Positions 4,371-53,960 of a stretch of 64,000 nt of DNA are shown piece after piece. A program made the translations under genes and the position numbers. Origin of the DNA: Branchiostoma lanceolatum (Eukaryota; Chordata; Leptocardii; Amphioxiformes; Branchiostomatidae); NCBI RefSeq assembly GCF_035083965.1, contig NC_089732.1, positions 14,056,424 through 14,120,423 on the forward strand, in the 5' to 3' direction. Positions within the stretch are counted from its first letter, which is position 1; each line of letters opens with the position of its first letter. A model generated the notes under the pieces. The model saw only the letters and a program-made list of their open reading frames with translations. It was not told the origin of the DNA and searched no databases.

Positions 4371-5599
4371 AATGTTATTTACTATGCAGGTAGCTTAGAC
4401 TGAGATGTACACAATGAATTGTAAATTATGCAAATTGGGACTGAATTTGCATAAGCAACGAGAAAAATCTGTACTTCCATTCTAGTTAAAGTTGAAAGGG
4501 AAAGATCGTGAGTCATCTTGATATTTATGTAAACATGGGCCACCCATTGTAAACATACCACCCACTCAATACAGAAGTGGTACGGTCTAATGACGTACGC
4601 ACCCCAGACTGTTCCATTATCTGAAGGATCAGGGGGGAAGGTAGAACATTTTCTTTGATTCCAAATCATCTTTTTTCAATAACAATGTCAACATTACTGA
4701 GATTTCAATTAAGGACGGATGTTCTTTCGATGATCCATATCAATAATGTCGTTCTATAAGGCGGTTTTCGAGAGGCTTTGTGAAAAAAAAAACACCTTGC
4801 ACTGTTCTAGTTCCTATACCAAGGACATTTCCTGGTCAGTTTCAAAAGAGTGCTGAATATCAAATGTGGGATACTAAGAAAAGGTAGGGTCGCACTGTTT
4901 CCAAAGCAAAAAATTGGCAACGTATCAGTTCTTGGGAACCCTTGTCTGTAAATATTTGTATCGTCGGCGCGTGTCTCTGTTGCGAGGCATATGAATATTA
5001 AAGTTCGTCTATTTGAAAACATTACAGTTACCCACGACGAGGGATGTTTGATATAACATATAACGTCCTCAGTTCTACGATACAGCATTGCCATTGTGGA
5101 CTTGATGTATTTGTAAGTTCGACTTTTTTTTAGTTTTTTTTTTTTTTAGATTTGCTATATAGTGCTTCACGAAGATGTTGCAGTGTTTTTGGCGACGCCT
5201 CAGGGGCGAGCCTAATGGTATATATATATATATCTTTTTTAAATGTATTGCAAATACAATGGAGTCTTTATTGTTATCATTTACTATATACGGTTGTATC
5301 GCTTAGTCGAATTAATTTATTCAAATTATTCATTGAATTGCAGGATCCCGTCAAATGTGGAGGAAGAAAGAACGTATAAACGTCACAAATGAAATGTGTA
5401 ACTGCCGACATTCCATCTTGAAGACACTAGTATTGGCTTAAGTAAACATAGCGCACCGTTCCTCAAAATCAAGCCAACAACCAGTGGCGTTCTCAGGACT
5501 TTAATGACATCTGTAAATATTGAATGTGAAGTGGGAAAACAATATTCAAAAGCCTTATTAATTTGATTGCCGAGAAATATATATACATCTTATACAGCA

Positions 5600-6557
5600 A
5601 TGACAGGCTATCCAGTGGAACTTGTGACTACAGGAAATGGAACTATCCAAAACAAAGGCAGGGGGCGGTCCCTTTCCATGTCGGCAATCCAGTCAAAAAC
5701 CTTTGACGAAAATGATAATGTTGCACCATATCCTGCCAAATTGAAACTAAGGAGAAGCCAGTCACTTAAAGTTTTGGACGCTAACTCGTGGCAAAACCGC
5801 ATTGCTCGGACACGGTCAGAGGACAATATCCACCGCAAGTCGCCAGAGGGCGTGTTTGAAGAATCACATGATAACACAGAAAACATTGACGCGAAACAGT
5901 CAACTGTAACGAATGCGCATGCGGCTAAATCAAATTCACAGGCACGAAAATCTTCGGAAGACGTGTGCAAAAAGAATGTGGTACCGATCGCGAAGATTGA
6001 CGGGAATCAGCAAAACAACCAGAAACAGTTTCGAAGACACATTCAAGAAGACAAGTCTCGCTGTGAAGGCATAGAGGAAGAGGCTAACGAGTTTGTAGAG
6101 ACAGCACGAACAATGGAAGACGCACAATGTGTGCCGCCGTCGCCTGATGAGGTTGGAACTGCTTCTGGTAATGAACGTGTCATCAGCACCGCAACTTGTA
6201 ATCTTCGTGACGGGGCCGACAGCTACAAAATCGGGGCAGAAGGTAGCGCTTGTACCGTTGCTCAGGAGTCCAAAACCCCTAAACCGGATGTGCGACAGCA
6301 TACTCCCCCATCTTCAGCATCTGCATCTGGATCGCAAGTTCCTCCATATGCAGCCGCATTCGCCCAGTTTATGAATGCGTTAGGGTCAGCTGCCGGCTCC
6401 CCACCGCAAGGAGGATCCCCATCTCCGCCAGCAGGGTGCGTCTTCAACATCACCATGAACAACTGCAACAATGTCCAGTTTGGGAACCAGAACATCATCA
6501 ACTCCACACAGCATCATGAACAACAATTTGGAGGAAAATTTGATGGTCTGAATCAAG
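5600..6557 (+). CDS. Fusion gene exon 1: disordered region with RHIM-like motif
   Basis: This exon encodes about 319 residues starting MTGYPVELVTTGNGTIQNKG. It is rich in Ser, Gln, Asn and charged residues, with RRSQSL- and RTRSED-type basic-Ser motifs that look like phosphorylation sites. Near its end comes a Pro/Gly stretch and then an Asn-rich block with V292-Q293-F294-G295-N-Q-N, close to the RHIM core (I/V)-Q-(I/V/L)-G followed by Asn-rich polar residues. Phe at the third core position is unusual. The exon ends with phase 1 at AATCAAG|GTACAG. RHIM assignment is inference from the tetrad and its setting. Confidence 0.6.
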
Positions 6558-9500
6558 GTACAGCCTAATCAATCGTGGGGTCGTGTGGCGTAACGGCAGG
6601 GTGTTCGACTCAGAACCAAGAGGTCCCGAGTTCGAATCCCCCTGACGCCACCGATGTTGTGCCCTTGGGAAAGGCACTTAACACGACTTTCCTCACTTCG
6701 CCCAGGTGTATAAAAATAAAAATGGTGCGTTGTTATCTGTACGTGGCACTGTTAATATAAGTTATCAAAAAAACTTGAGTGCAGTGCCACGTCGTCCTTG
6801 TCAGTCAAAAACCGAAGTAAAAAAAAGTATATTTAACGTTAACACTTCAGTTAAATTAAATTCTTATCATTATCATCAACATCATAATTATCCTTCGACA
6901 CTGATTTTCAGTTGACCACAAAAACATGTGTTAACGTTAAAAAACGTGCATATGTTATTTTCATATTCTAGTAAATGTTCAGATTAAGGGAATATAATAA
7001 TCAATGAATCAAGATGTTCAATTAGTTTAATCTAAATTGTTTTACATCGCATGTTCAGGCATCATGCGGTTGCTTATGAACTTGGAGGACCCACAAAAAG
7101 AACAAGAGATGGTGAGCGACCTACAGGATGAAGACAAGTGTAAAGACCTTGTCAGTGGTCTCAAAGAATTCGGCACACAGGTAACACAAAACTTTCTATT
7201 CACTATCATAATCCATGGTATACTTTATGAGTTCATAAACATAAGAATATTATTCTTTTTGTTATGTTTGCGTATGGCTTAAGTTCATGTAAAAAATTTC
7301 TGTTCTTCTACCTGCGTAGTTGAAAACTGCTAAAGAAGGCTGTGTCCTCCTCGACTTTGAACTGTCCAAAGATCCAGAGGAACGTTTGCGCTTTCTGCGG
7401 TCCTGCCAAAGTGGGGAGTTTCAACGGTTTATCCAGGTATGGTTAAACGATAACATACAAAAGAAGCTTGCCTTGTTCAACCTCTCCTCTGCTTGGAGAG
7501 TAAGGAGTGGCCGCGATTTTTAACGTGGAGAGAGGGAGGCGTTAAAATCGCGACCACTACTAGCCCCCCAACCGAAACATCTGCTTGGAGAATGGGCCAG
7601 TTAGCTGTCAGCCAATCAGATACTCGGCTTCCTCCTGTTAACACTGCTAACCAATCACATTGTCTCTTGACCCTAGGTGGCGACGTGGTTGGCCGGTAAC
7701 TTTCATTTAGTTAGTTGAGAAAGAAAATTTTGATGAGTAAAAATGAGAAAATTGTGCATAAAAAAGGCATACATATGCGCCTGTATCAACATTTTTCATA
7801 CACGCTACAGAATAATACAAATAATATACTTTCATTTCTTTTTTAATCAAAATTGCAGGAAAATTTGCTGTCCCGGTACGTCCAGGACCCGACTAAGGTA
7901 TCGATGGTCCTGTGCTTCAGCATCGCCTCCATCACAGACACGGGGTGTGGCGAGATGTCGTTCAATTTCAACTGTGAGTCGTTGTAATTTCTTTGTATTC
8001 ACAGACATTTAACATTGACGACATTAAAAGTTTGCCTGTGTAAAAGTATCCTGGAATTTAAACCTAAAACTACAACAAAACTACCAGAAATGCAAACTTG
8101 ACTGACTATCGTATTCAAAACTCTTGCTGAAAAGCTTCGACAACCTTACATTCAAATATGACGAGGTCAAAAAATCAACGTTACTCCTAAACTAACTATA
8201 CGTCCCTATATTCCATACGACATAGAAACATGACATTTTGTTCGTTTATTCAGTACTTCAGGGTGGCCCCGACGTCACGACGTCAGGAGGTTTGGAGGGT
8301 CTGCGGCAGTATACAACCTTGTCCGGACTGAAGTTTGTTGAGAGCTGTGTGCCACACCAGAGCGACGTCCAATCCTGTCTTGGCGACGTCTTAGACCCAG
8401 GACAGCGCAGTGCATTTCAGCTGCACTTATCAAACGCACAGGTAATTAATAAGTTCCCTGACACATGCGTGGTAAGACAGGATGACGACAGCAAATTGTG
8501 GACACTCTTACTACAGTGATAGTCTCTACCAGACTAACCGCGTCGGAAATAGAGAGAACATTTGCCGGGGGACTTTGGCCATGGAGGATAATATTCCCAT
8601 TCTAGGGTTGCCTATTGGACCCTCTCTCCGTAGCCGACTCCCTTCAAACAATTGACTCTATTTGGCCAATTTCTACTATTTTCCCAGCGACCCGCGGAGA
8701 CTGGTAGAGGCTAGGACAGTGGTGGGTGTGTCTGTGACGGTAGAGTTTACCCAGTAGATCCTTACCGATTGTTCTGTCATAGCCATGGCTGGAAATATCG
8801 TATGCCAAAAACAGTCAAACCCTCATAGGACGTATTTTACTGCGACTTCAGCTGAAATATGTTGCATATGTTAATAAAAGAATTTTGCTTCGGCCAAGCC
8901 CAATATGAGCAATGGTGATGTTTTCATCAAAAAATAAAGCTCTAACGGATGATCTCTTGCAATTTTTGAACTTAGACCACCTCAGCAGAATTGCCAGCCG
9001 TTGGAAACCAGTTGAAGATGTCCGCGATGGCAGAGGTTCTACAGCGACCCGTGCGACTGATCACTGCACTACACAACAGCTTCGTGGATGTCCTCATCCT
9101 TCCATCACAGCCCCTGAACCCGACCCATCCCACCGTCCCTGTGGTGATCGGAGCCTACGATAAAGACCACTACGTCAGGATGGACTACGTCACACCAGGT
9201 ACGTGAATGGAAATCAAATAGCGACTAATAGCTATAGGTACATGGCTTTCAGTATGGCATCGTGTGGTGTGTGGCGCAATCGGTAGAATGTTTCGCCCAG
9301 AACCGAGAGGTCCCGTGTTCGAAACCCCGATGTGCCCCGATATTGTGCCCTTGGGAAAGGCACTTTTCACGACTTTCCTCACTCCACCTAGGTGCGTATT
9401 GAAGTCAGCTGCTGGCACCGAATGGCAGCCGCCCAGACCCTTGCGACAGTTCCACAAAGTGCGAATGTATCTGTTCTGTATTATATGATTGTAAACCCTG

Positions 9501-12500
9501 CAGCAATTCAGCACTGGCTGCCATTGCACGGGTAATTTTTGACCAATAAACCATTATTATTTCTTAGATTTACACATTCTTTTTAGTGGTAGCGAGAAGT
9601 ATCTATCTTCTGGGTGTGTATTATGCATATGCGCATACGTGTCATTGTTTTGATACAGGAACATCTTGGTATCAGTTTCTTTTCAATCAATTCATGTTCA
9701 CTCTGTGCCATGCACTGAGCTGTTTATATACGTTTCTCACAATGTATTAATGTTTCAAACCCAAATAAGATAGAATATTTTGTGTTAGTATTTGAACTAG
9801 AGTAGTCACATGCTATATTGTTACCAATTGTCTGTCCGTCCTTTCATGTTACATGTACTTGCAATTAGCCTACGGGCAAGAACTTGAAATAAACTCATTA
9901 AACTTATTATCATTAATCTCAATTACAGAGGCACAAGCGGCGACATCTGGTGGTCCGGAGCTCCACTCTGACGACCACAGAGACGGCGCAGCGGAAGAAG
10001 AAGAAGAAGGCATTACATGGGAGAAAACAGACAGTGGACACGCTCTCCACTTCAACACGACCATCAGCGATCTTACCAGACAGACGCGCGTCCCAGACAA
10101 GACGGACTCACGATGGGCCTCCCTAACTACTGTCACCTTCGCCGACTGCACCGTGGAACTCAAGAACACAGAAGACTCACCGACCATCGAAGTACGTACT
10201 CCGAATATGAAGCAAGACCTAACAACCCTTTCGAGCGCCCTTGCTCTATTTCCTCATCGCTCTCAAGTGTCGAAGATATACCTTGGCGGTAACAAATTAC
10301 GACAGATACCCGGCGGAATTGTCCTCCTACCAAATCTAACATGTCTGTCGGCACCAAAGAACAAGTTAAAGAAACTCCCGGCCAGTATTCTAGACCTCAC
10401 CAGCCTCACCGTGGTTGACCTCAGCCGAAACCATCTGACCAAGTTTCCCGAAGATCTCCAACTCCTACCGCTGTTGGAGAAAGTCTTCCTCTGCTCTAAC
10501 AAGATCAAATCCATCCCAGTCGGAATTCTTAATAAGATGAAGAACCTTCAGGTCCTGGCTATTGATAGGAACAATCTTAAAGGTGTCCCCAAAGACATCG
10601 TTGAATCCAAAAGCCTTGTGGAGTTACACATTAAGGGAAACCCTCTCAGCAGTTTGCCCAGAATGGTGTTCAGCATGTCAAGTCTAAACTTGCTTGGGGT
10701 TGACAGAAATGTGTGGGAAGGCTTTCTGAAACACAACGACGACGCAAGATATCGTCCATCATTTAACGTGTGCTTCGACAGATGCCAACACATGGGCACC
10801 GATAGGAAACAGAACCTTCCCGACACAACAAGCACCACCATTCAGAAAGCAGAAGACAAGCAAATGGGCCCATTGGAAGAGGACAATCTACCAAATCAAG
10901 GATCTTCAACAGAAGAGGAGCCGAGGCAAGATGGCCCAACGGAACAGGGTCAAGAAGAGCCGCCTATCTCCCCGTCAGCTGAGATGAGTTTGACAACGCA
11001 CGTCTCAAGCATGGACGACTACAGCAGCACTTACCGAAGGTCCATCGAAGACCCTGCCGAATTCTGGCGAGAGGTCGCCGAAGAGTTTCACTGGGAAACC
11101 GGCCCGAAAGGAAAGTTTGTCGAGCACAACTTCGACCCCAACGTCGGTGACGTCTTCGTCAGGTGGATGTCGGGAGCGACAACCAACATCACCTACAACC
11201 TACTGGAGAAGAACATCCGAGAGAAGTGTCTTGGGTCTGCCCTTGCTTTACAGTGGCAGGGAGACGATGACGCGGAAAGACGGGAAGTGACGTATGCACA
11301 GTTGAAGAGCCTGGTTTGTCGCGCAGCCAACATGCTCAAGGCTAAGGGCATCAAGAGAGGCCATAGGGTGATGATCTACATGCCGCAGACGATAGAACAG
11401 GTTGTGGCCATGCTGGCCTGTGCACGTATCGGCGCCGTGCACTGCGTAGTGTACGGAGGGGCGACGGCAGAGTACCTGGCTGACCGGGTGAAAGATTCCA
11501 AATGCACCGCTATCATCACGGCTGACTTTGCTAAAAAGGATGGCGGCAGGCAACCCATGAAGACCGAAGTGGACAGGGCCTTGAAGATCTGTGGGGAAGA
11601 ACACTCCGTGCACTCTTGCATCGTCGTGCGGCGTGCAGGCGACGGCGAGCCCGACGTCTGGACGACATCGGGCGGGTCGCAGGAGAAGAATGTCCCGTGG
11701 TGTGACGGCAGGGACTACTGGTGGCAGGAGGAGATGGGGAGAGTGGATGACGAGTGTGAACCGGAGTGGATGGATGCGGAGGATCCCCTGCTCATCCTCT
11801 ACACAAGTGGGTCTACTGGTGAGTATAGAGATGAAGAATTCAATCTTGACTTTAAGGAGGGGCAGAAGACATTGGGAAAATCGGGGTTTCAAGAAACGAC
11901 TCTGGCGTACCGATCCGCATTTCGTAAAGCCGCTGTCCAGTCATCAGCCAATCAGATAATCGCACTCCTGTTGTTGGTTACTAGCCAATCATGCTGAATC
12001 GTAGGCGGTGACGTGCTTGGATGGTAACTTTTCCTCCAACAATAGTAGGGGGATTATCTGATTGGCTGACGGCTGACCAGTGCTAACACAGTTAGGACGA
12101 ATCACAGGCCGGTACGCCAGGGTCGTTGCTTGATACATACAAGTGGTGGGCCAGGTATAAGAGGATGGGAAAGGGTGTGTCAACAAAGTATGTAAAACAA
12201 ATCTGAAAAGTTGTAACCAATTTCCAATACAGAAATTTTCGACTGTACAACACCAGTCTCTGTCAAGGAATAAGCAATCCACCGCTGAGATGAATTCTGT
12301 TTGTGATTTCATCTTGTTAAATATTGGTTCTCGCTTTGATTGACAGGCTCACCAAAAGGAGTCATCCACACAGTTGGTGGCTACATGATGTACACAGCAA
12401 CCACCTTCAAATACGTGTTCGACTGCGGCAACGTCGCCAACAAAGTCCACTTCTGTACGGCGGACCTTGGCTGGGTGACCGGACAGAGTTACGTCATCTA

Positions 12501-14119
12501 CGGCCCGCTGCTAAACGGCGTCACCACGGTCCTGCTCGAGGGCGATCCTCTCAAGGCCAACAGGATCGTTACCATGGTGAGGAGGTACAACGTCACCAGC
12601 CTCTACACCACGCCCACAGCCATACGTCACATGAAGGCGACTAGCGGTTCTGACGCGAACTACAAGCTGGACACTCTCCGCGTTGTTGGCACCGTCGGTG
12701 AACCGATCGCGAGGTCAACATGGCGGTGGTACCGGAGCACGATCGGAGGCAACCACTGCTCTGTAGTCGACACGTACTGGCAAACGGAGACCGGCGGGCA
12801 TGTCATGACACCCCTCCCGGGAGCCACTCCGATGAAACCCGGCTTCACCACGCTTCCGTTCTTCGGAGTCGAACCGGCTGTTCTGACCGACGATGGGAAA
12901 GAAATGGCCGGGCAATGCGAGGGGCACCTGGTTTTCAAGTCGCCGTGGCCGGGGATGATGCGGGGGATAAACGGGAAGCCGGAGAAGTTCACCTCCTACT
13001 TCCAACAGTTCCCCGGGTACTACTACACTGGAGATCGGTGCCGGCGGGACGCAGACGGGTACTACCGGATCCTTGGGAGGCGGGAGGATAGAGTCAGCAT
13101 CCCCGGCGCCATGGGACAAGTCTTCAACCAGCTGGACGTGGAGGCAACACTTCTCCAGGTTAGTAGCATGCCAACTTAGCTATTCATTATAAGCTTGTTC
13201 ACTTTTTAAGTACGCAATCCGTACGCATGTACATGTCATACATTGCGGTAATCTCCAAGCAGATCTATAGGTTGCGAAGTCCGTATCAAACTGGCAGAAG
13301 AAGTACGTTGCTATACAAGCTCATTCTTCCAGTTGGATACGGTCTTTGTAATCCATTGGGCCTGCTTGGAGACTAGCATTGCGGGTACTTTGTCAAAGTT
13401 GAAAGCTAGTGGATTACCTATTTTTAAGGACCTTTGACATTTTACCCATAATGCATCAAATTGTGCACGCGCACTTCAGCTAGTGAACTAGCTTTTTGCT
13501 ATCGCCGAAGTTTGCTCTTCGGTGCAAAATATCCAATCAGGAAATGCCTTTCAAAGTCATGAGATTTGTTGAAGCCAATACTGTCTCCTTGCATTTCTGT
13601 AATCTCAAACCGTGAGATCTAAGTATTCAGCGGAGAGTGTAAAGAATCCACTACTAGAAACAACTTGTACTAAATGCTGCAAAAAATTCTTCCGCCACAC
13701 AGCATCCCGACGTAGAGGACGTTGCAGTGGTCACGACAGACCCGACCGACGACAGCTTCAGCGGCAGCGGTACCAGCAGCGGCGGATACGACAACTGGTA
13801 CATTTTCGTCACACTCCGCCAGACGGCGTGCCTGACAGAAACGATCTTCAACAACCTTCGCGAGATGCTGGCTACAACGCTACACATCTTCACCCCACCC
13901 AGCCACATCCACTGCGCGAGTGAGCTACCTAAAACCTGGTCAGACAAGGTCCTCCGACGGCTGTTGCGTAAGGTCGTGCTCAATGACCTTGACCTTGGTG
14001 ACTTCCATGTCGTGGCTAATTTGAGGTCACTCACCACACTTTTCAGGCAGTGCCGTGACATGCAAACTTCATGTGACTCCATAGAATTTTTTACAAAACC
14101 AAGAACCATGCCATCGTGA
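5600..14119 (+). CDS. RHIM-like/LRR/acetyl-CoA-synthetase fusion protein (nine exons)
   Basis: Exons: 5600-6557, 7059-7180, 7320-7436, 7859-7973, 8254-8441, 8976-9198, 9929-11818, 12347-13158, 13703-14119. All have AG/GT borders and matching phases (1,0,0,1,0,1,1,0), giving 4842 bases and 1613 residues. Order: Ser/Gln-rich disordered N-terminus, RHIM-like VQFGNQN at about 292-298, an unassigned region (320-575), an acidic linker, six to seven LRRs (about 672-840), an acidic/Gln linker, then an ACSS2-like synthetase (about 938-1613). The known enzyme makes acetyl-CoA from acetate, ATP and CoA; RHIMs nucleate amyloid-like signalling assemblies. No signal peptide or membrane segment is seen, so the protein is probably cytosolic. 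The start is the first ATG in the open frame; a TTG-led extension to 5567 is rejected. The gene could be two adjacent genes if a terminator is hidden in intron 1, but phase agreement argues against it. A possible AATAAA is at 14609. Confidence 0.7.
6584..6745 (+). mobile_element. tRNA-derived SINE, copy 1 (truncated)
   Basis: The head resembles a tRNA gene: an A-box-like TGGCGTAACGG and a B box GAGTTCGAATCC. It is followed by GTGCCCTTGGGAAAGGCACTT, present also in copy 2 at about 9262. It sits in intron 1 of the fusion gene, same strand. It lacks the 3' tail seen in the other copies. Confidence 0.8.
7059..9198 (+). CDS. Fusion gene exons 2-6: unassigned central region
   Basis: Exons 7059-7180, 7320-7436, 7859-7973, 8254-8441 and 8976-9198 encode residues about 320-574. 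Exons 2-3 give a charged helical segment followed by KEGCVLLDFELSKDPEERLR and SCQSGEFQRFI. That pattern (small/hydrophobic strand, charged turn, then S-G-E/H-L-x-R) resembles a TRADD-N-like module common in invertebrate innate-immunity proteins, but I cannot confirm it. Exons 5-6 contain RPVRLITALHNSFVDVLILP and a terminal GAYDKDHYVRMDY, loosely like the last strands and His-Tyr of OTU-type proteases; no catalytic Asp-Gly-x-Cys was found. Treat as a region of unknown function. Confidence 0.5.
7486..7600. mobile_element. Degraded CTCCAAGCAGAT-family palindrome
   Basis: CTCTGCTTGGAGAG at the left and GACCGAAACATCTGCTTGGAG at the right, with an internal inverted pair (CGCGATTTTTAACG / CGTTAAAATCGCG), match the family seen intact at 2640-2807. 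It lies in intron 3 of the fusion gene. Confidence 0.55.
8523..8716. mobile_element. MITE with CTCTACCAG termini
   Basis: The ends GTCTCTACCAGACT and its inverse AGACTGGTAGAGGC bound about 190 bases in intron 5 of the fusion gene. Flanks resemble ACAGTGATA/ACAGTGGTG, an imperfect 9-bp duplication. A larger relative with the same ends is at 45611-46080. Confidence 0.55.
9262..9555 (+). mobile_element. tRNA-derived SINE, copy 2 (near full length)
   Basis: It shares the B box region (GTGTTCGAAACCCC here), the GTGCCCTTGGGAAAGGCACTT block and the downstream CTTTCCTCACT segment with copy 1, and adds a tail CTGCCATTGCACGGGTAATT...GACCAATAAACCATT. The tail recurs alone at about 45810-45890. It lies in intron 6 of the fusion gene. 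Confidence 0.8.
9929..14119 (+). CDS. Fusion gene exons 7-9: leucine-rich repeats plus ACSS2-like acetyl-CoA synthetase
   Basis: LRRs of 22-24 residues (e.g. LTVVDLSRNHLTKFPEDLQL) span about 10220-10720. From about 11017 the frame matches the whole ACSS2 length: N-terminal YRRSIEDPAEFWREVAEEF, RIGAVHCVVYGG, the ATP-binding YTSGSTGSPKG (its Gly codon is split by the intron 11819-12346), the substrate/ATP DTYWQTETGGH, and TGDRCRRDADGYY. Past the hinge it diverges: family GR-x-D-D-x-x-N-V-S-G-H is GRREDRVSIPG, and family PKTRSGKIMRR around the catalytic Lys is PKTWSDKVLRR, so the Lys remains but its Arg and Gly neighbours do not. Exon 9 joins cleanly as ATLLQ|HPDVEDVAVV. Activity is therefore uncertain. 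Confidence 0.88.
11889..12132. mobile_element. MITE in the intron that splits the ATP-binding loop
   Basis: The left end CAAGAAACGACTCTGGCGTA and the right end TACGCCAGGGTCGTTGCTTG are inverted repeats with about four mismatches. Inner AGCCAATCAGATAATC and its inverse GATTATCTGATTGGCT extend the palindrome. No clear target duplication or coding region is visible. It occupies roughly half of intron 7 of the fusion gene. Confidence 0.7.
13250..13376. mobile_element. CTCCAAGCAGAT-family palindromic MITE
   Basis: Ends ATCTCCAAGCAGAT and CTGCTTGGAGACT, with an imperfect inner inverted pair (TCCGTATCAAACTGG / CCAGTTGGATACGG). Flanks CATTGCGGT (13241-13249) and CATTGCGGG (13377-13385) form an 8/9 target duplication. 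It lies in intron 8 of the fusion gene. Confidence 0.75.
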
Positions 14120-14480
14120 AAAAAAGCACGTCAAACCTGATTTGGTAAAAGTCATGCCATCATTAAACAAATACTGAGACTGAAGTCACTTCCCAAAATT
14201 TTCAGGCAGTGTCTAGACAATGCAAATTTCGTGCCACTCTATCGACTTTTTACAAAACCAAGAACCGCCGTCGTGAAAAAATCAAACATGTCACGACAAA
14301 GCTGATCCGTTACAAGTCATGCCATCCGACTAAACAAATACCAAGACTTAAGTGACTTCCCAAACTTTTCATGTCTGTTTTTTTTTTAATTTACAAGGCC
14401 AAGAACCATGCCATCGTGAAAAAAGAAGTCACGGAAAACCTGATCTATGAAAAAATCATGCCATCATGAAAGCAAGAAAA
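14030..14480 (+). repeat. Tandem 3' repeat that includes the fusion gene's last codons
   Basis: Units of about 161-165 bases start near 14030, 14190 and 14355, each with TTTTCA(GGCAGTG) followed by TTTACAAAACCAAGAACC and a (GCCAT)CGTGAAAAAA block. The first unit encodes the final residues after RSLTTLF and carries the stop at 14117-14119; the later units are untranslated. Confidence 0.7.
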
Positions 14481-15431
14481 CTTCATATAACACCAAAGTT
14501 GAATTTGTTTACAAAACCGTCATGTCATCTTTAAAGCAAATAAACGGATACGCAAATTTCATATCACGCACTGAAATCTTATCGGTTTGAAGAATCCTGA
14601 AACCATGAAATAAATACAGAAATTTTCGTTTCATTGCAAACTTAAATTCGATTCGACATTTTTCAGGATACCATTTAAAAATGTAGAGATAGAAAACTAA
14701 GTCGGATGATAAAAGGGCGTGAAACTGAATATAAGAGCAGCAGCAAGTGCCCTTACTGACTGAACATACTAACTTCATCGCCATTTTGCTCCATTTGCAA
14801 TAGACTTCGGATTCCAGTAACTGCGGCCATCTTGAAATGTACTCTCGCGAGAGCACATACAATCTAGCGAGATTGAGCCTGTCCTTGCACGCAAATGAGG
14901 GCCACTATATAGAGGTAGTACTCTTGTAACATGTATTATCTGATCGTGACTAAAAAAATGAATATGGTTCATGTAAAAAGGGCTGCAAAACTGTTTTGAA
15001 GTAGCCAAAAGTTATCTTGCCAACTATGCAGGTAAAGTATTGTCTCTTCTTCAGCCATAACTCAGGAATTGTCAGAATGGTAAAACGTATATAGCCTCAT
15101 GTTGTCATGAGTAAGATGAATAGGAAAATGCCCAACGCTACAACCCGTTTGTTATGGAATTTTTGTATGTAATTGCATCAACACTGCATGTGTCATCGTA
15201 GTTTAAATCTGGTACAGTGTTTTAGTATTTCATTTTTATTACGTCATAGAAAATACACATTCTGTATTGGAGATGTCCAATGTGGATTTGAAAATAAGTC
15301 ATTAGCTTTATTTGATCATATGTGTCACGAAGAATAGAATTTAAGCATTCTGTAGGATGAATTGCTTGTATGCAATAACCCTTCGTGGTCGACCATTGTT
15401 TGTTCAACATGTAAAATAAACAAAAAAGTAA

Positions 15432-18941: not shown

Positions 18942-21533
18942 TTAGAGGTCAATGTCATGGCTGGAGAAGCTACACTGTCCTCCCATCTCTTCGTCCATTG
19001 ATGAGGAGAAACTTCCTCCCCTCTTCATGTAGGTCTTCCTGGTCGACCCACCTCCTTTTTGGCTGCTTATTTTCTTCATCATTTCTTCCATGGCGCTGCC
19101 TCCCTCCATCTTCATTCTCTTTCCTCCCATCGTCATTCTCTCCATCTCTTCTTCCATTTCTTTCATCTTGTCGTCACTCTCTTGCTCGAAGCACGCCCCC
19201 ATCTTTCTCCGTCCCTTCTGTGGCTTCCTGCTGGTTTTACTCTCCGGGAAGCCCATCCCCCAATCTTCGTCGTCAAAATCAGCCATGCCCATGGTGATGT
19301 TTCCTCCCTCGAAACTCTCTTCCCTTCTCTCACTCTTCGACGACCGACTGCTGGATTTGCTGGTCTCCATCATTCCTCCGTTGAAGGATTCCACCTTGCT
19401 TTCTTCCTTGTGCTCTTCCTCCTTCTGAGATTCCTCGAGCTCCATTCTTCTCCCGTCTTCGGTCTCTTCTGTTGTCTGTTGGACCTTCTTGCTTTTCTCT
19501 TGCGACTTCATCTTGTGGCCTCCTTCGAACTCCTCTCTTTGTTTCTCTTTCATTCCTTCCTCTTCGAGCTCGAAGCTCTTACCTTTTTCTCTTACAGCAA
19601 GTCGCTTCCCTCTTTCTTCAAGCTCCATCGACTTTCCTTTCGACTTGTCGTCGAGCTGCATCTTCCTCTCGCGTTCTTGAAGCGCGGTTTTTCTACCTTT
19701 CTCTTCCAGCGCCATTTTCTTTTGTGAATCCTGTGATGCGATCTTCCTTCCTGTCCACAGGTCCTCCGACTCCATTTTCTTATGTTTCTCTTCCAACTCC
19801 AGATCTTTCCCCTCCTCTTGTAGCGCCATGGCTTTCGATTTCTCGTCTAACATGATCCTCTTCCCTTCCTTCGCCATGGCTAAGCGTTTCTCGTCCTCCT
19901 TGAGGCCCATTTTTCTTCCCTTTTCTTTAATTGACAACTTCCTGCAATACAAGAGGCAAAAAGGTTAATTTTAAAGGCAGCCTAATATATTTTATAAACA
20001 ATATTAGGGCGTTGAAAGTCGTATTTTCAAAATTATTGTTTTAGTGATTTCTATTCATAGGAAGTTTGATTAACACTATTCCATTGCATATCGACCATCA
20101 TGGAGCAAAAATGCGTTGTGTGGTGGGAACTCATTGAGCATCTGAGGACTTGGAGGCCAGCCATCATTTCAAATCTTCCGAACATGCACGATTCGGAAGA
20201 TAAGTCCTGAACGCTTCCATAGAAATAATCACGTGGCCATACTCAATGTGGTCGGGCATTGTGACGTCACGCGGCCGGAGGTTACCGAAAATTGTCGACC
20301 GAAAACGGTTATGGCTGGATTGTTGGATGATTATTTGGTGGTACCAATAAATAAAATACTCCTTTTGCGGCTAGTTTCTGTGCTCTTTTTGAATGCCCAT
20401 AGTATGAAATAATGATGCAAATGTGCTAATATGGGGAAGTAAATGTCAATTTCATATAGATTGCTTTATCCAGAATATTTCCAGTTTTACCCCCTGAAAT
20501 CGCTTTGGGCACCTTTAAGTTAACAGTCCACAATGACAATCACAACTTGACATTAGGTTCAGAAAAGATGTACTTCAAATGTTACAATCAGCAAAAGTGG
20601 TGGATAGCGTTACCTAAATTCTTTCTATGATAAACCGGAAATAATCCTTTCATAAGCAGGATTTGGCTGATTGCATAACGTACTAATCTACAGCCTGTGT
20701 TACGCCATCATTCTCGCCTGTCAGGGCTGATACCCCCCTCCCCCACTAGCTAATCTCCAAGCAGATGTGTTACGTGGACGTGCTTTAGTTTGATCAGAAA
20801 AATTAAAATGGCCGCTTTTTTCTTCAGTGGCCTCCAGTCGACGAGCGATGCCCAAACTAAACGTCTGCTTGAGGGTTTATTGACTAGTTACTATGTATCA
20901 CCTATATGATTGTTGCGTTAATGTAAAATCAACTATAAAACAACAATAATTGAAGAAAAATCAAATCACAACTAGATACGATGAGGGAATTTTTTTCTTT
21001 TACCTTGTGTCTTCTTCCATCGCCATCATCCTGTCATCTTCATCCATTTCCATCCTGCTCCCCTTTTCTTCCAACTGCATCAGTTTGTCTCTATCCTGTA
21101 GCGCCACCCTGCGACCTTCCTCCTGCATTGCAAGGTTCTTCCCTCCTAGATCCATCTGTGTCCTGGTTCCCCTCTCTTCCACGCCGATCAGGCGGCCATC
21201 TTCTTCCATTTCCAGAACTTTCCCCACTTCTTCCGTTGTCATCTCCTTTCCCTTTTCCTTCACCGTCATGGTCCGTCCCTTCTCCTTCATTTTAGCCCTT
21301 CTATCGCCATCGTCCATGTCAATGTTTCTGACCTTCTCGTCGAGTTTGCCCTTCCGTCCCTTCTCCTCGTCTTTTATCTCTATTTGCCTCCCTTCTTGAT
21401 GAACGTCACATTTCTTGCCGTCTTCTGCAAGCTCCATTTCTTTCTTCTCGTCCTTCTTCGAAACTGGGAGCTTATTTCCTAACTTCAAGTTGATATTTCT
21501 TTTCGCCATATCTTTCTGTGCTTGTGAATACAT
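18942..21533 (-). CDS. Nonapeptide-repeat protein (two exons)
   Basis: Exons on the minus strand are 21533-21004 and 19941-18942 (donor ACAAG|GTAAAA, acceptor ATTGCAG|GAAG), phase 2, giving 509 residues. The start MYSQAQKDMAKRNINLKLGN is the first ATG downstream of a probable TATA box. From about residue 30 to beyond 300 the sequence is a nine-residue repeat, consensus x-E-x-G-(R/K)-x-(M/L)-x-(L/M), e.g. EEKGSRMEM, KEKGRKMGL, AKEGKRIML, DEKSKAMAL, QEEGKDLEL; I count about 30 units with a few two-residue insertions. The repeat runs across the exon junction without a break. The C-terminus becomes Ser/Glu-rich, then Met/Gly-rich, ending in a basic segment and SSSMDEEMGG. There is no signal peptide or membrane segment. 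Family and function unknown. Alternating M-x-L after a charged turn would suit a beta-solenoid; a charged single helix is the alternative, though the Gly argues against it. Confidence 0.75.
19975..20514. mobile_element. piggyBac-like MITE with TTAA target duplication
   Basis: The element is bounded by TTAA at 19971-19974 and 20515-20518. It starts AGGCAGCC and ends GGGCACCT. Its interior, for example CATATCGACCATCATGGAGC and TTGTGTGGTGGGAACT, is diverged from the left arm of the large element at 35083. It lies in the intron of the nonapeptide-repeat gene. Confidence 0.7.
20752..20884. mobile_element. CTCCAAGCAGAT-family MITE
   Basis: The left end is AATCTCCAAGCAGATG and the right end CGTCTGCTTGAGGGTT, with inner TAGTTTG/CAAACTA. 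Flanks ACTAGCTA and ACTAGTTA are a partial duplication. It lies in the intron of the nonapeptide-repeat gene. Confidence 0.6.
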
Positions 21534-49105: not shown

Positions 49106-50440
49106 TCAGCCCGTATAAGTTACAGGTTCAAAATGTTTTTTAACAAATCGAAGCTCCTGATATTTCACATTTTCCCTAGGATCACACATAGAAAGGTTCT
49201 CTCCTTCAAACCAAGTTTTCAAGTCTGTGTAAACTTTCCTTTTTGTTGGGCACCTCTGAAGAAGTTCCCTACACAGATTACACCACCTGCCTTCCTCTAA
49301 GGGTATGTTCTTAGGAGTATTAGTCTTCCACTTGAAGTACGCGTTATATCTATCTTTATCTTGATCAAGCATCTTTAAGTAATCTGCTAGTTCCTTGGGT
49401 GACTTGAAGTCATCCACGTGGATGTATGAGTGCGGTGGTGCGAGCCTTTCGAAGTCAGATCTGTTGGCTCCCAGAACAACTGGAACGACGTCGTTTTCCA
49501 GAGCATTCCTACAGAACTTCTCGGTAATGTACTCTTTGCATTTCATGTTCTCAAACGCTAGATAGAACTTATACCGTCTGATGACATCAGGCATGCATTT
49601 GATTTTCCATTTCGCGCATGCGTCGTCAATTCCACATCTGCCATAGACATCGACGTGCATATGTTTGACGAGTTCAGTAGCATAAGCGACACGGTTGGCT
49701 TGAGTGTTACATTTGCTGATGAACCAGACCGCAAGCTTATTTTTCCCTGCCGCGTAGTCCTTATTAGAATCCTCAACTTTGAGTTTCTGGTAAGTCTGAT
49801 ATAACGACCCCCACGTACCAAGCGAGTCAGCATCAGCTCTGTAGGTGATAGTCCAGTTAAAAACACTCCTGTACGTTTCAAAGTTTATAGACCGATAGTT
49901 CGGACACTCTGAGCTTAACCATACCCAATGCTGATGAGGGTAGCGAACTGTAGGCATCACAGACGAGTTATAATCCACCGGCAAGTTGCTATTTTCGAAG
50001 ATGACGGCATCAGCTTCATGAATTTCGTCCCGGTATTTAGAAAAGATACAATTAGGAAAACGTGGACACAATGAACGTCTTCCTTTCGGTAGTTTCTTCT
50101 TCAAATGGTTGTTCCAAAGATCTGTCCAAAATACAATCTTTACTTGTTTCCGTTTGGCCAGTGTTTTTACATTAGTTGAATCGTACCATACAGAATAAAA
50201 CTTAGATAAAGGATTGACAAGGAGGTCATCTTTAGGATCGCTATGACAGGTTTGATCGGTCTGTTTAGGATTTTGGAGGACAACGTTGCTTTTATTGCAG
50301 TCACAGGCAACCTTCAGATCCCTTGAATTTCTATATTTTTCATACTTTTGATCTGTAAAATAAATCACCATAAATGCGCATAGGCATGTTGGGAATATCA
50401 CCAAGGACAGTGCGAACAAGTGTTTTGCTGGCAATTTCAT
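49106..50440 (-). CDS. Alpha-1,3-fucosyltransferase-like protein (GT10), copy 1
   Basis: A single-exon frame of 444 residues. A short basic cytosolic start and a membrane helix at about 8-28 (LFALSLVIFPTCLCAFMVIY) give a type II Golgi topology. The GT10 catalytic region includes NWTITYRADADSLGTWGSL and, from about residue 290, YKFYLAFENMKCKEYITEKF...NALENDVVPVVLGANRSD...SYIHVDDFKSPKELADYL. These enzymes transfer fucose from GDP-fucose to GlcNAc in glycan chains. The C-terminus has paired cysteines (WCNLCRELLQRC, MCDP). In the ITEKFxRNAL motif this copy has Cys where copy 2 has Trp. The N-glycosylation sequons NSS, NWT and NRS are shared. It is divergent from copy 2, with 2.2 kb between the starts. 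Acceptor specificity cannot be told. Confidence 0.92.
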   Translation of the reverse strand: MKLPAKHLFALSLVIFPTCLCAFMVIYFTDQKYEKYRNSRDLKVACDCNKSNVVLQNPKQTDQTCHSDPKDDLLVNPLSKFYSVWYDSTNVKTLAKRKQVKIVFWTDLWNNHLKKKLPKGRRSLCPRFPNCIFSKYRDEIHEADAVIFENSNLPVDYNSSVMPTVRYPHQHWVWLSSECPNYRSINFETYRSVFNWTITYRADADSLGTWGSLYQTYQKLKVEDSNKDYAAGKNKLAVWFISKCNTQANRVAYATELVKHMHVDVYGRCGIDDACAKWKIKCMPDVIRRYKFYLAFENMKCKEYITEKFCRNALENDVVPVVLGANRSDFERLAPPHSYIHVDDFKSPKELADYLKMLDQDKDRYNAYFKWKTNTPKNIPLEEGRWCNLCRELLQRCPTKRKVYTDLKTWFEGENLSMCDPRENVKYQELRFVKKHFEPVTYTG

Positions 50441-50736
50441 TTTGAAGGCGGTTAGACCTGTGGACGGTTTGGTGTGAAGATGTCTCCTTGTCCTTTGAAG
50501 TGGTTCAAGGTCTCGCAGTTCCAGAGCCTCTTATTCTTGAAGAAGTAGCTGTCCACCTACAAGTGTGAAATGAAGTATAGAGTGAAGATATGCAGGAGTT
50601 TCATAAGACATTTTACTTTAGGCTATCAATGAAAACATTTGAAGTGTGACTGCATGTTTATTTGAGTGTGTTTTCTTATCGCTGCACATTTGTGTTTACG
50701 TGTGTTTATATGTATGCATGTACATGTGTGTGAATG

Positions 50737-52499: not shown

Positions 52500-52616
52500 C
52501 TGTACTCCGAACAGCTACTACTTATGAGAGAAAAGCTACGTAAAACCTTATAAACCACTTATAGGAGGTCAGGAGACATCTTCACACAAAACAGTCAACA
52601 GGTTTCAACTGTCCAA

Positions 52617-53960
52617 ATGAGGTCATCGCCAAGATATCTATTCACATTATCCTTGGTGATATTCCCAACATGCCTGGGCGCCCTTATAGTGGTGTATTTC
52701 ACCACCATGGTTAAACAAAACAGACATTCGAGGGATTTGAAGGTTGACCTTGACCATAACAAAAGCAGTATTGTCCCCAAAAATCCTGAACAGACCCATC
52801 CAAGCTGCAGCATCGATCCTAAAGATAACCCTCTTGTCAATCCTTTTTCGAAGTTTTATTCTGTATGGTACGATCCACCAACTGAAAAGACATTCACCAA
52901 CCGGGAAAACGTAACAATTTTGATGTGGTTTCAGGCAGAGTCATTGGCCAGTCGACTGATGAAAAAACTACCAAAAGAAAGACGTGCAAGGTGTTCACGT
53001 TTCAGTAATTGCATCTTTTCTAGGTACAGGGAAGACATACATGAATCTGAGGCTGTCCTCTTTGAAGTGAGCAACTTGCCGATGGATTATAACTCCTCCG
53101 TGATGCCTACAATTCGGTACCCCCACCAGCATTGGGTATGGTACCGAACAGAGTGTCCGAACTATCGGTCTATAAATTTCGAAACGTACAGGAGTGTTTT
53201 TAACTGGACTGTCACCTACAGAGCTGACTCTGATTCGTCAGGTGCTTGGGGGTCGTTACATAGGATCTACCAGAAACTAAACGTTGTTGGTGTCGATCCT
53301 AACAAGGACTACGCAGCAGGGAGGACTAAGCTGGCGGTTTGGTTCATCCGCAAATGTAACACTCAAGCCAACCGTGTCGCTTATGCTACTGAACTCGTCA
53401 AACATATGCACGTCGATGTCTATGGTAGATGTGGAAAGGACGACGCATGCGCGAAACGGAAATATAAATGTATGAATGGCATAATCAGACAGTATAAGTT
53501 TTATCTAGCCTTCGAGAACATGAGGTGTAAGGAATACATTACCGAGAAATTCTGGAGAAACGCTCTGGAAAACGACGTCGTTCCAGTTGTTCTGGGAGCC
53601 AACAGATCTGACTACGAGAGGCTCGCACCCGCGCACTCATACATCCACGTGGATGATTTCAAGTCACCCAAGGAACTAGCAGATTACTTAAAGATGCTTG
53701 ATCAAGATAAAGATAAATATAATGCATACTTTAAGTGGAAGACTACTCCTCCTAAGAACATACCCTTAGATGAAGGCAGGTGGTGTAATCTTTGTAGAGA
53801 ACTTCTTCAGAGGTGCCCAACGAAAAGGAAAGTTTACACAGACTTGAAAACTTGGTTTGAAGGAGAGAACCTTTCGATGTGCGATCCCTGGGAAAATGTG
53901 AAATATCATGAACTTCGATTTGTTAAAAACCACTTTGAGCCTGTAACTTATACGGACTGA
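52617..53960 (+). CDS. Alpha-1,3-fucosyltransferase-like protein (GT10), copy 2
   Basis: A single-exon frame of 447 residues, highly similar along its length to copy 1 and encoded on the other strand. Membrane helix at about 8-27 (LFTLSLVIFPTCLGALIVVY). GT10 motifs are intact: NWTVTYRADSDSSGAWG, YKFYLAFENMRCKEYITEKF then W-R-N-A-L, NDVVPVVLGANRSDYERLAP, and SYIHVDDFKSPKELADYL. The C-terminal half is almost unchanged between the copies, while residues about 30-130 (stem) have diverged. AATAAA at 54174-54179 is a candidate poly(A) signal. Predicted Golgi fucosyltransferase using GDP-fucose; acceptor unknown. Confidence 0.93.
   Translation: MRSSPRYLFTLSLVIFPTCLGALIVVYFTTMVKQNRHSRDLKVDLDHNKSSIVPKNPEQTHPSCSIDPKDNPLVNPFSKFYSVWYDPPTEKTFTNRENVTILMWFQAESLASRLMKKLPKERRARCSRFSNCIFSRYREDIHESEAVLFEVSNLPMDYNSSVMPTIRYPHQHWVWYRTECPNYRSINFETYRSVFNWTVTYRADSDSSGAWGSLHRIYQKLNVVGVDPNKDYAAGRTKLAVWFIRKCNTQANRVAYATELVKHMHVDVYGRCGKDDACAKRKYKCMNGIIRQYKFYLAFENMRCKEYITEKFWRNALENDVVPVVLGANRSDYERLAPAHSYIHVDDFKSPKELADYLKMLDQDKDKYNAYFKWKTTPPKNIPLDEGRWCNLCRELLQRCPTKRKVYTDLKTWFEGENLSMCDPWENVKYHELRFVKNHFEPVTYTD

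Follow-up and report, generated by a model that had tools for sequence, protein, structure and literature searches.

Among the described systems closest to the gene considered here are the TRADD-N proteins of marine invertebrates, which, in the account of Kaur et al. (2021, PMC8195603), carry leucine-rich repeats (LRRs) together with varied effectors. According to the main text of that article, the TRADD-N domain tends to sit between other domains, where constant and variable parts of the protein meet, and the enzymes attached in such architectures are read as effectors; a GT4-TRADD-N-LRR arrangement is known in cephalochordates, hemichordates, and cnidarians, and metazoan proteins of the DEDD2 and NCOA6 clades combine TRADD-N with LRRs, WD40, GT4, and other effectors. 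Two further groups of proteins deserve comparison: the RHIM proteins, represented in lancelets by RIPK1, which has its RHIM, and TICAM (PMC12119088, PMC9444067), and the hybrid innate genes of amphioxus, for example LRR-caspase and TNFR-caspase, the output of which is a caspase (PMC2575513). The gene that we have analyzed lies on the forward strand of a 64,000-nucleotide stretch of amphioxus DNA, hereafter the window, and its combination of domains suggests the TRADD-N proteins with LRRs and effectors described in PMC8195603. Beyond the gene itself, tblastn gave three matches in the window (E = 2.0, 8.1, and 9.4) and no paralogue, ARAGORN found no tRNA genes there, and, for a view of the neighbouring sequence, 10 of its 207 stop-to-stop open reading frames (ORFs) of at least 70 codons were compared with Pfam.

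The spliced translation joins nine exons, separated by eight GT..AG introns, into a single open frame of 1613 codons, with intron phases (1,0,0,1,0,1,1,0 for introns 1 to 8) that are mutually consistent; all nine exons were found in place at the borders that an earlier note on this DNA had assigned to them. Exon 1 (5600-6557, aa 1-319) starts at the first ATG past an in-frame TGA (5564-5566), within an ORF spanning 5567-6568, and encodes a long N-terminus of low complexity with the RHIM-like motif at its end. Exons 2 to 6 (7059-7180, 7320-7436, 7859-7973, 8254-8441, and 8976-9198; together 7059..9198, aa 320-574) are flanked on both sides by phase-1 introns and encode the middle region of the protein. 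They are followed by exon 7 (9929-11818, aa 575-1204), exon 8 (12347-13158), and exon 9 (13703-14119), which contains the bulk of a diverged C-terminal subdomain and ends with a TGA stop. Because exon 7 alone holds the LRRs, the N-terminus of the acetate-CoA-ligase region and about half of its adenylation core, the fusion of LRRs with the enzyme requires no assumption about splicing. A pseudogene is ruled out by the lack of any stop or frameshift across the 1613 codons and nine exons, and a chance ORF in exons 7-9 is ruled out by homology.

A codon model ranked the reading frame proposed here above the other two forward frames in every one of the nine exons, with a narrow margin in exons 1, 3, and 5; a reverse-strand frame scored higher still in exons 3, 4, and 5, and all eight introns were negative in the three forward frames, the ones scored for them. 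Exons 7-9 belonged to the training set of this model, so that exons 1-6 alone constitute a test, and in the modelled frame these score above the introns. Ranked by splice consensus weights among the 510 GTs of the region, the donor of intron 1 (AAG/GTACAG) is the weakest, at the 92nd percentile, and the remaining seven fall between the 97th and the 100th. The exon with the RHIM-like motif is tied to the rest of the gene more weakly than the LRRs are to the enzyme, and all nine exons would presumably share one transcript. Could the locus be divided instead into two or more genes, with a RHIM-exon gene (exon 1 by itself, 322 codons long, its stop lying shortly past the donor), a TRADD-N gene, or both, preceding an LRR-synthetase gene that begins in intron 6 or exon 7? 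Such a division would account for the weak donor of intron 1, for the methionine at position 322 near the start of exon 2 and for an open in-frame stretch with an ATG in intron 6 that abuts exon 7 (ORF 9796-11997). However, this extension into intron 6 is non-coding by the codon model and has 34% GC, intron 6 has a donor at the 99.8th percentile, the phases agree over all eight introns, and TRADD-N followed by LRRs is a described order (PMC8195603). We consider separate genes rather unlikely.

The RHIM-like core NNCNNVQFGNQNII (6458..6499, forward strand, aa 287-300) was recognized from a PDB match to RIPK3, from its score with the Pfam RHIM family and from a pattern search; it includes VQFGNQN (aa 292-298), of which VQFG (aa 292-295) is the tetrad. 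The motif NNCNNVQFGNQN resembles the RHIM of RIPK3 in chain 6jpd, which was the second of two PDB matches for the peptide (E = 1.2), the top match being a xylanase. With Pfam RHIM it gave E = 0.63 and 10.1 bits, under the cut-off of 20, and for this reason we call it RHIM-like. Among 20,000 shuffled versions of the protein, 121 contain the pattern [VI]Q[VILF]GxxN, picked after the motif had been seen, and 2,479 contain the bare tetrad, so that the tetrad by itself is little proof. VQFG, the core tetrad found here, is a natural variant that works in RIPK3, as described in PMC12119088, where most tetrad variants are reported to fall below wild type for NF-kB activation, with TQIG and VQSG as exceptions, and all of them to activate ZBP1-dependent cell death. 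By resemblance to these sequences, the VQFG motif is predicted to be a working RHIM.

In the middle region, the earlier note had seen no assignable domain. The TRADD-N fold is of the RRM-like alpha+beta kind, and a match to the corresponding Pfam family, TRADD-like_N (PF20694), covers aa 351-393 across exons 2 and 3 (7151..7418, forward strand). This match came from nine sub-segments of the protein that we chose ourselves and was not found in the full-length Pfam scan; when aa 320-436 were scanned alone it had E = 0.0024 and 18.1 bits, under the Pfam cut-off of 23.7, and a 61-residue piece gave E = 0.0054, also under the cut-off. TRADD-like_N was the sole Pfam family reported for aa 320-436, and none of 10 shuffled or reversed controls matched any Pfam family. 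The same sub-segment scan produced a match of the low-complexity N-terminus to Tmemb_cc2 with E = 0.0031, which we take for a coiled-coil artefact, and E-values at the level of the TRADD-like_N match are therefore not decisive. No TRADD chain appeared among the PDB matches obtained by phmmer with the middle region, such searches giving weak unrelated matches (ULK4, protein disulfide-isomerase A3, and IlvA; E = 0.53 to 1.6), and PF20694 was found in none of 4 and none of 400 prokaryote genomes, nor in any of 14 control genomes, results that do not show absence. The pair G367-C368, placed by eye, lies just before the hydrophobic stretch VLLDFEL; TRADD-N domains have a tiny residue and a serine, occasionally a cysteine, at the turn that links strands 2 and 3 (PMC8195603). 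LRRs and an enzyme lie C-terminal to this region, and on its N-terminal side stands the low-complexity, RHIM-bearing exon with no recognised globular domain. As judged from this profile, the middle region is probably TRADD-N-like in aa 351-393, and the remainder of aa 320-574 still has no family. An OTU-protease-like look of aa 501-574, noticed by eye, was dropped since no Pfam family matched. The link to innate immunity proposed in the earlier note is likely, and the TRADD-N-like match, under cut-off as it is, gives it a family basis.

Some seven LRRs, repeating every 23-24 residues, follow at aa 688-850 (10267..10755, forward strand), recognized by Pfam (LRR_8, E = 9.4e-16 in the full-length scan), by PDB matches, and by a pattern that counts six of them, the seventh, at aa 711, being added by eye. 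The acetate-CoA-ligase-like region then extends over aa 936-1613 (11011..14116, forward strand), split by introns 7 and 8, and aligns with PDB 2p20 over aa 936-1581 (503.6 bits). Pfam identified AMP-binding (E = 5.3e-81) and ACAS_N (E = 9e-15) in it; AMP-binding_C scored 21.2 versus a cut-off of 24.5 in the full-length scan and 29.0, above the cut-off, for aa 1468-1613 alone. These profile and PDB matches on the 1613-residue model uphold the order first proposed, namely RHIM-like motif, middle region, LRRs, and acetate-CoA ligase.

How much of a working synthetase does this region retain? We compared it with 80 prokaryote enzymes, using the residue numbering of the Salmonella enzyme as read from chain 2p20. 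W309, V310, T311, V386, W414, E417, D500, R515, and K609 are all kept; we take V310, T311, V386, and W414 to form the acetate pocket and several of the others to belong to the ATP site. All four pocket residues are present, which in the 80 enzymes are found in 54 (V310), 79 (T311), 80 (V386), and 80 (W414). The region passes the cut-off of NF001208, the NCBIfam acetate-CoA ligase subfamily (665.3 vs. 657), and together with the retained pocket this would suit an ordinary acetyl-CoA synthetase that recruited an N-terminal regulatory part for local supply of acetyl-CoA, with no role as an immune effector. Yet it does not reach the cut-off of the AcsA equivalog TIGR02188 (655.7 vs. 724.95), and for this reason we class it as a homologue of AcsA, not as a working AcsA; its C-terminal subdomain is diverged and it is joined to parts of immune type. 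An ordinary synthetase is consequently improbable.

The changes are concentrated towards the end of the protein: 12 of 106 near-invariant positions are altered up to the end of the adenylation core, as against 21 of 44 after it. The hinge aspartate D517, present in 80/80 prokaryote enzymes, is replaced by glutamate, and the A10 motif PKTRSGK has become PKTWSDK (13928-13948), with R606>W and G608>D, where arginine and glycine are found in 80/80; GRVDD and PKTRSGK are kept in the five PDB chains aligned, of 58 matched. There is also a three-residue insertion that all 80 enzymes lack, and the P-loop lysine, present in 76 of the 80, is a serine. Among residues that we presume to contact the CoA phosphates, R191 is replaced by K, R194 by G, and R584 by A, at positions where the comparison set has a non-arginine residue in 42/80 (R194) and alanine in 6/80 (584). 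The ratio of C-terminal to core identity versus the 80 enzymes is 0.50-0.76, the lowest value among the 6320 ordered pairs of these enzymes being 0.79. The first part of the synthetase looks largely preserved and the last part drifted, so that what had been described as a complete ACSS2-like enzyme indeed has ACAS_N, AMP-binding, and AMP-binding_C but carries a strongly diverged C-terminal subdomain. Lysine K609, presumably needed for adenylation, persists within PKTWSDK; the changes flank it, and the adenylation half-reaction may therefore also be lost.

This C-terminal divergence is equally compatible with an enzyme that is dead and with one whose function has changed. As a pseudoenzyme, the synthetase part would bind acetate, ATP, or acetyl-AMP as an integrated sensor or decoy, or would bait a factor that a pathogen directs against acetyl-CoA synthetase, with the RHIM and TRADD-N as output; in favour of this are the loss of near-invariant residues on one side only, past the core, including those of the hinge and A10 motif, the insertion, the P-loop serine, and the retained ligand pocket. 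Against it stand K609 and the listed ATP and acetate residues, all retained, and the reading of enzymes on published TRADD-N architectures as effectors (PMC8195603). We regard it as a serious rival, if an unlikely one. The explanation that we favour is an inducible effector that forms adenylates but whose transfer to CoA is weakened: one intact gene for an immune protein of the TRADD-N class, in which RHIM clustering drives an adenylating enzyme, a tentative proposal to which we give somewhat less than an even chance.

Under this favoured explanation, the protein would be cytoplasmic, danger would be sensed by the LRRs or by upstream partners, and the TRADD-N-like domain would act as a switch. 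The RHIM would nucleate amyloid-like clusters by association with itself or with further RHIM proteins of the animal, for example RIPK1, thereby activating or concentrating the C-terminal effector. The latter would still convert ATP and a small carboxylate into acyl-AMP while handing it over poorly to CoA, and the output could be consumption of ATP and acetate, acyl-AMP itself, or acylation of nearby proteins. A bolder version, which we consider doubtful, is an amyloid-gated metabolic effector with efficient CoA transfer lost, in which RHIM clustering turns on the acetate-adenylating enzyme and the response to infection is acyl-AMP, protein acylation, or a drain of ATP; RHIM output would in that case proceed with no kinase, caspase, or MLKL belonging to the same protein. 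Standard enzyme assays could tell whether, as predicted, adenylation is preserved and CoA transfer damaged. If the locus is transcribed as one unit, death and inflammation signalling of RHIM/TRADD type would be tied directly to short-chain carboxylate metabolism, acetate-CoA ligase would join the enzymes known on TRADD-N proteins, and a RHIM would stand in for their usual death-fold domain.

In comparison with known systems, the gene departs from AcsA and ACSS2 in its hinge, A8 and A10 motifs and C-terminal subdomain, and in its placement behind LRRs, while sharing with them the order of ACAS_N, AMP-binding, and AMP-binding_C, the acetate pocket, several ATP residues, and K609. Its core resembles that of RIPK3 chain 6jpd, NNCSEVQIGNYN, and has a tetrad natural to RIPK3, as in the RHIM proteins RIPK1, RIPK3, TRIF, and ZBP1, but the motif lies N-terminal to a TRADD-N-like domain, and no kinase, TIR, death, or Z-nucleic-acid-binding domain is among the 10 Pfam families reported in the full-length scan. 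With LRR-caspase and TNFR-caspase of amphioxus it shares the character of a lineage-specific shortcut, recognition and output being combined in one protein, except that the output end is acetate-CoA-ligase-like instead of a caspase; the main text of that report (PMC2575513) contains no occurrence of synthetase, AMP-binding, RHIM, or TRADD. The suggestion of an undescribed system is not supported, because the combination of TRADD-N with LRRs and various effectors is already described, cephalochordates included (PMC8195603). In the main text of the same article, acyl-CoA, RHIM, and acetyl have no occurrence as word starts, and no protein with RHIM, TRADD-N, LRRs, and acetate-CoA ligase is named among the matches listed in the open-licence literature; the order is likely new in print. 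Like the DEDD2- and NCOA6-clade proteins of PMC8195603, our protein appears to place its TRADD-N-like domain after an N-terminal interaction part and ahead of C-terminal LRRs with an enzyme. Unlike them, it carries a RHIM-like motif where a DED is usual, and its enzyme part is an acetate-CoA ligase; these two appear to be its new elements. The gene may therefore constitute a metabolic branch, not yet described, of a published kind of patchwork immune protein.

The earlier note had placed nine exons with consistent phases at 5600-14119, and this structure holds on the forward strand: in the predicted model every intron is GT-AG, the intron phases run 1,0,0,1,0,1,1,0 and the frame stays open for 1613 codons up to a TGA stop, with polyadenylation-type signals past the gene (ATTAAA at 14162, AATAAA at 14539 and 14609). 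Since exon 7 (9929-11818) encodes without interruption the leucine-rich repeats (LRRs), the ACAS_N domain and the first part of the AMP-binding domain, the fusion of LRRs and synthetase is present in the genome itself. The joining of exons 1-6 to exon 7 is predicted from splice signals and reading frame. Using assumed consensus weights, the donors of seven introns rank between the 97th and 100th percentile among the 510 GT sites of the region; the weakest, that of intron 1, lies at the 92nd, a point in favor of two separate genes instead of one. So is the ATG in the in-frame extension 5' of exon 7, but this extension has 34% GC and is non-coding by our codon model, and we consider a pair of genes rather unlikely. 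The codon model was trained on exons 7-9 and two fucosyltransferase ORFs. In all six test exons (1-6) the modelled frame beats both remaining forward frames, its lead being small in exons 1, 3 and 5. A frame on the reverse strand outscores it in exons 3, 4 and 5. Every one of the eight introns scores below zero in each forward frame.

The acetate-CoA-ligase region (aa 936-1613) passes the NCBIfam cut-off of the acetate-CoA ligase subfamily (665.3 vs. 657) and misses that of the AcsA equivalog (655.7 vs. 724.95). We compared it with the best 80 of 590 confirmed prokaryote stretches, all used, nine of which carry the title archaeon. In Salmonella numbering, the window enzyme keeps W309, V310, T311, V386, W414, E417, D500, R515 and K609. 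It has lost residues found in all 80 relatives, namely R191 (to K), the hinge D517 (to E), V519 (to R), R606 (to W) and G608 (to D), as well as the P-loop lysine (to S; K in 76) and the glycine following D500 (to R; G in 78), and its A8 region carries a three-residue insertion shared by none of the 80. Less telling are R194 to G (38 of the 80 have R, 36 have K) and R584 to A (67 have R, 6 have A). Because the named changes lie inside exons 8 and 9, away from exon borders, the splice model does not account for them. Among columns conserved in 97% or more of the prokaryote enzymes, 12 of 106 are changed up to the GD motif vs. 21 of 44 beyond it; when each prokaryote enzyme was left out in turn, the maximum departure was 6.5% and 11.4%, respectively. 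Mean identity with these 80 enzymes amounts to 0.47 for the core and 0.29 for the C-terminal subdomain. Taken per pair, the ratio of C-terminal to core identity is 0.50-0.76, whereas none of the 6320 ordered prokaryote pairs falls below 0.79. The motifs GRVDD and PKTRSGK occur in all five PDB chains aligned (of 58 matched), namely 2p20 from Salmonella and 7kds, 7kdn, 5ifi and 8rwj, which we take to be fungal. The "complete ACSS2-like enzyme" of the earlier note passes over the strong divergence of the C-terminal subdomain. The main rival reading is a complete loss of activity, which would leave the synthetase part as a sensor or decoy. Judging from residues only, we favor an enzyme that would form acyl-AMP with poor thioester output, since the adenylation core, unlike the C-terminal part, is largely preserved.

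The middle region, unassigned before, yielded a TRADD-like_N match below the Pfam cut-off (aa 351-393, E=0.0024, 18.1 bits vs. 23.7) when aa 320-436 were scanned alone, and a 61-residue piece matched at E=0.0054. Nine shuffles and one reversal matched no Pfam family (0/10); the domain did not appear in the full-length Pfam scan of the 1613-residue model, nor a TRADD chain in PDB searches with this region. Such an E value is not decisive by itself, since the same sub-segment scan gave E=0.0031 for Tmemb_cc2 in the low-complexity N-terminus. Exons 5-6 otherwise carry no assigned domain; by eye, aa 501-574 (8976-9198), with DKDHYVRMDYV, resemble an OTU-type protease in its C-terminal half, with no Pfam match.

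The RHIM-like motif in exon 1 (aa 287-300, NNCNNVQFGNQNII) aligned with Pfam RHIM under the family cut-off (E=0.63). A PDB search with its peptide gave two matches, a xylanase (E=0.5) and then RIPK3 chain 6jpd (E=1.2), aligned as NNCSEVQIGNYN. Among 20,000 shuffles, 2,479 contain the bare RHIM tetrad and 121 the pattern [VI]Q[VILF]GxxN, which was picked after the fact. According to PMC12119088, VQFG is a natural RIPK3 tetrad, every RIPK3 tetrad variant tested activated ZBP1-dependent death, NF-kB activation, weaker than with the wild type, was seen for all of them but TQIG and VQSG, and lancelets have a RHIM-bearing RIPK1. The LRRs number about seven (pattern search, one by eye) at a spacing of 23-24 residues; we take them to be of intracellular type, as the solved LRR chains closest to them in sequence are those of LRRD1, SHOC-2 and LIC11098.

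In evolutionary terms, exons 2-6 (7059-9198), which hold the TRADD-N-like domain, form a symmetric block with phase 1 on both sides, consistent with exon shuffling. The two flanking phase-1 introns, 1 and 6, each carry a copy of a SINE-like 138-nt repeat (6572-6708 and 9259-9394, 81% alike), in which ARAGORN called no tRNA gene. Genes of the TRADD-N kind have been linked to retrotransposons (Kaur et al. 2021, PMC8195603); for the window gene the repeats are only suggestive of such a link. A degenerate tandem repeat with a unit of ~160 nt spans 14022-14540; its first copy is the terminal coding stretch, so that about 30 residues at the C-terminus (14027-14116) have a common origin with the 3' flank, into which the repeat continues. 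Imperfect, MITE-like palindromes were seen with blastn in introns 7 (11886-12136, 64%) and 8 (13249-13375, 71%). Elsewhere in the window lie a charged, repetitive 340-codon open frame without Pfam match (18945-19964, minus strand), two divergently oriented GT10 fucosyltransferase genes of a single ORF each (49109-50530, minus strand; 52554-53957, plus strand) and an open stretch (61233-61766, plus strand) that codes for the greater part of a fibrinogen C-terminal domain.

The earlier interpretation rested on a real observation, and its reading is now improved and narrowed. Detection by the LRRs or by a partner would release the TRADD-N-like switch, the RHIM would bring about clustering and the enzyme might then be activated by proximity. 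According to Kaur et al. (2021), TRADD-N proteins show large lineage-specific expansions in marine invertebrates, Branchiostoma among them. In these proteins TRADD-N follows an interaction domain at the N-terminus, in most cases DED, and precedes variable C-terminal parts such as LRRs and enzymes; GT4-TRADD-N-LRR is among the orders described in cephalochordates, and TRADD-N is proposed to keep its flanking domains inactive until a signal frees them. The main text of that paper has no word starting with "acyl-CoA", "RHIM" or "acetyl". The window gene would share the plan of these proteins (N-terminal part, TRADD-N-like domain, LRRs, enzyme), whereas it differs in having a RHIM-like motif where they usually have DED, and on this plan its enzyme is an acetate-CoA ligase.
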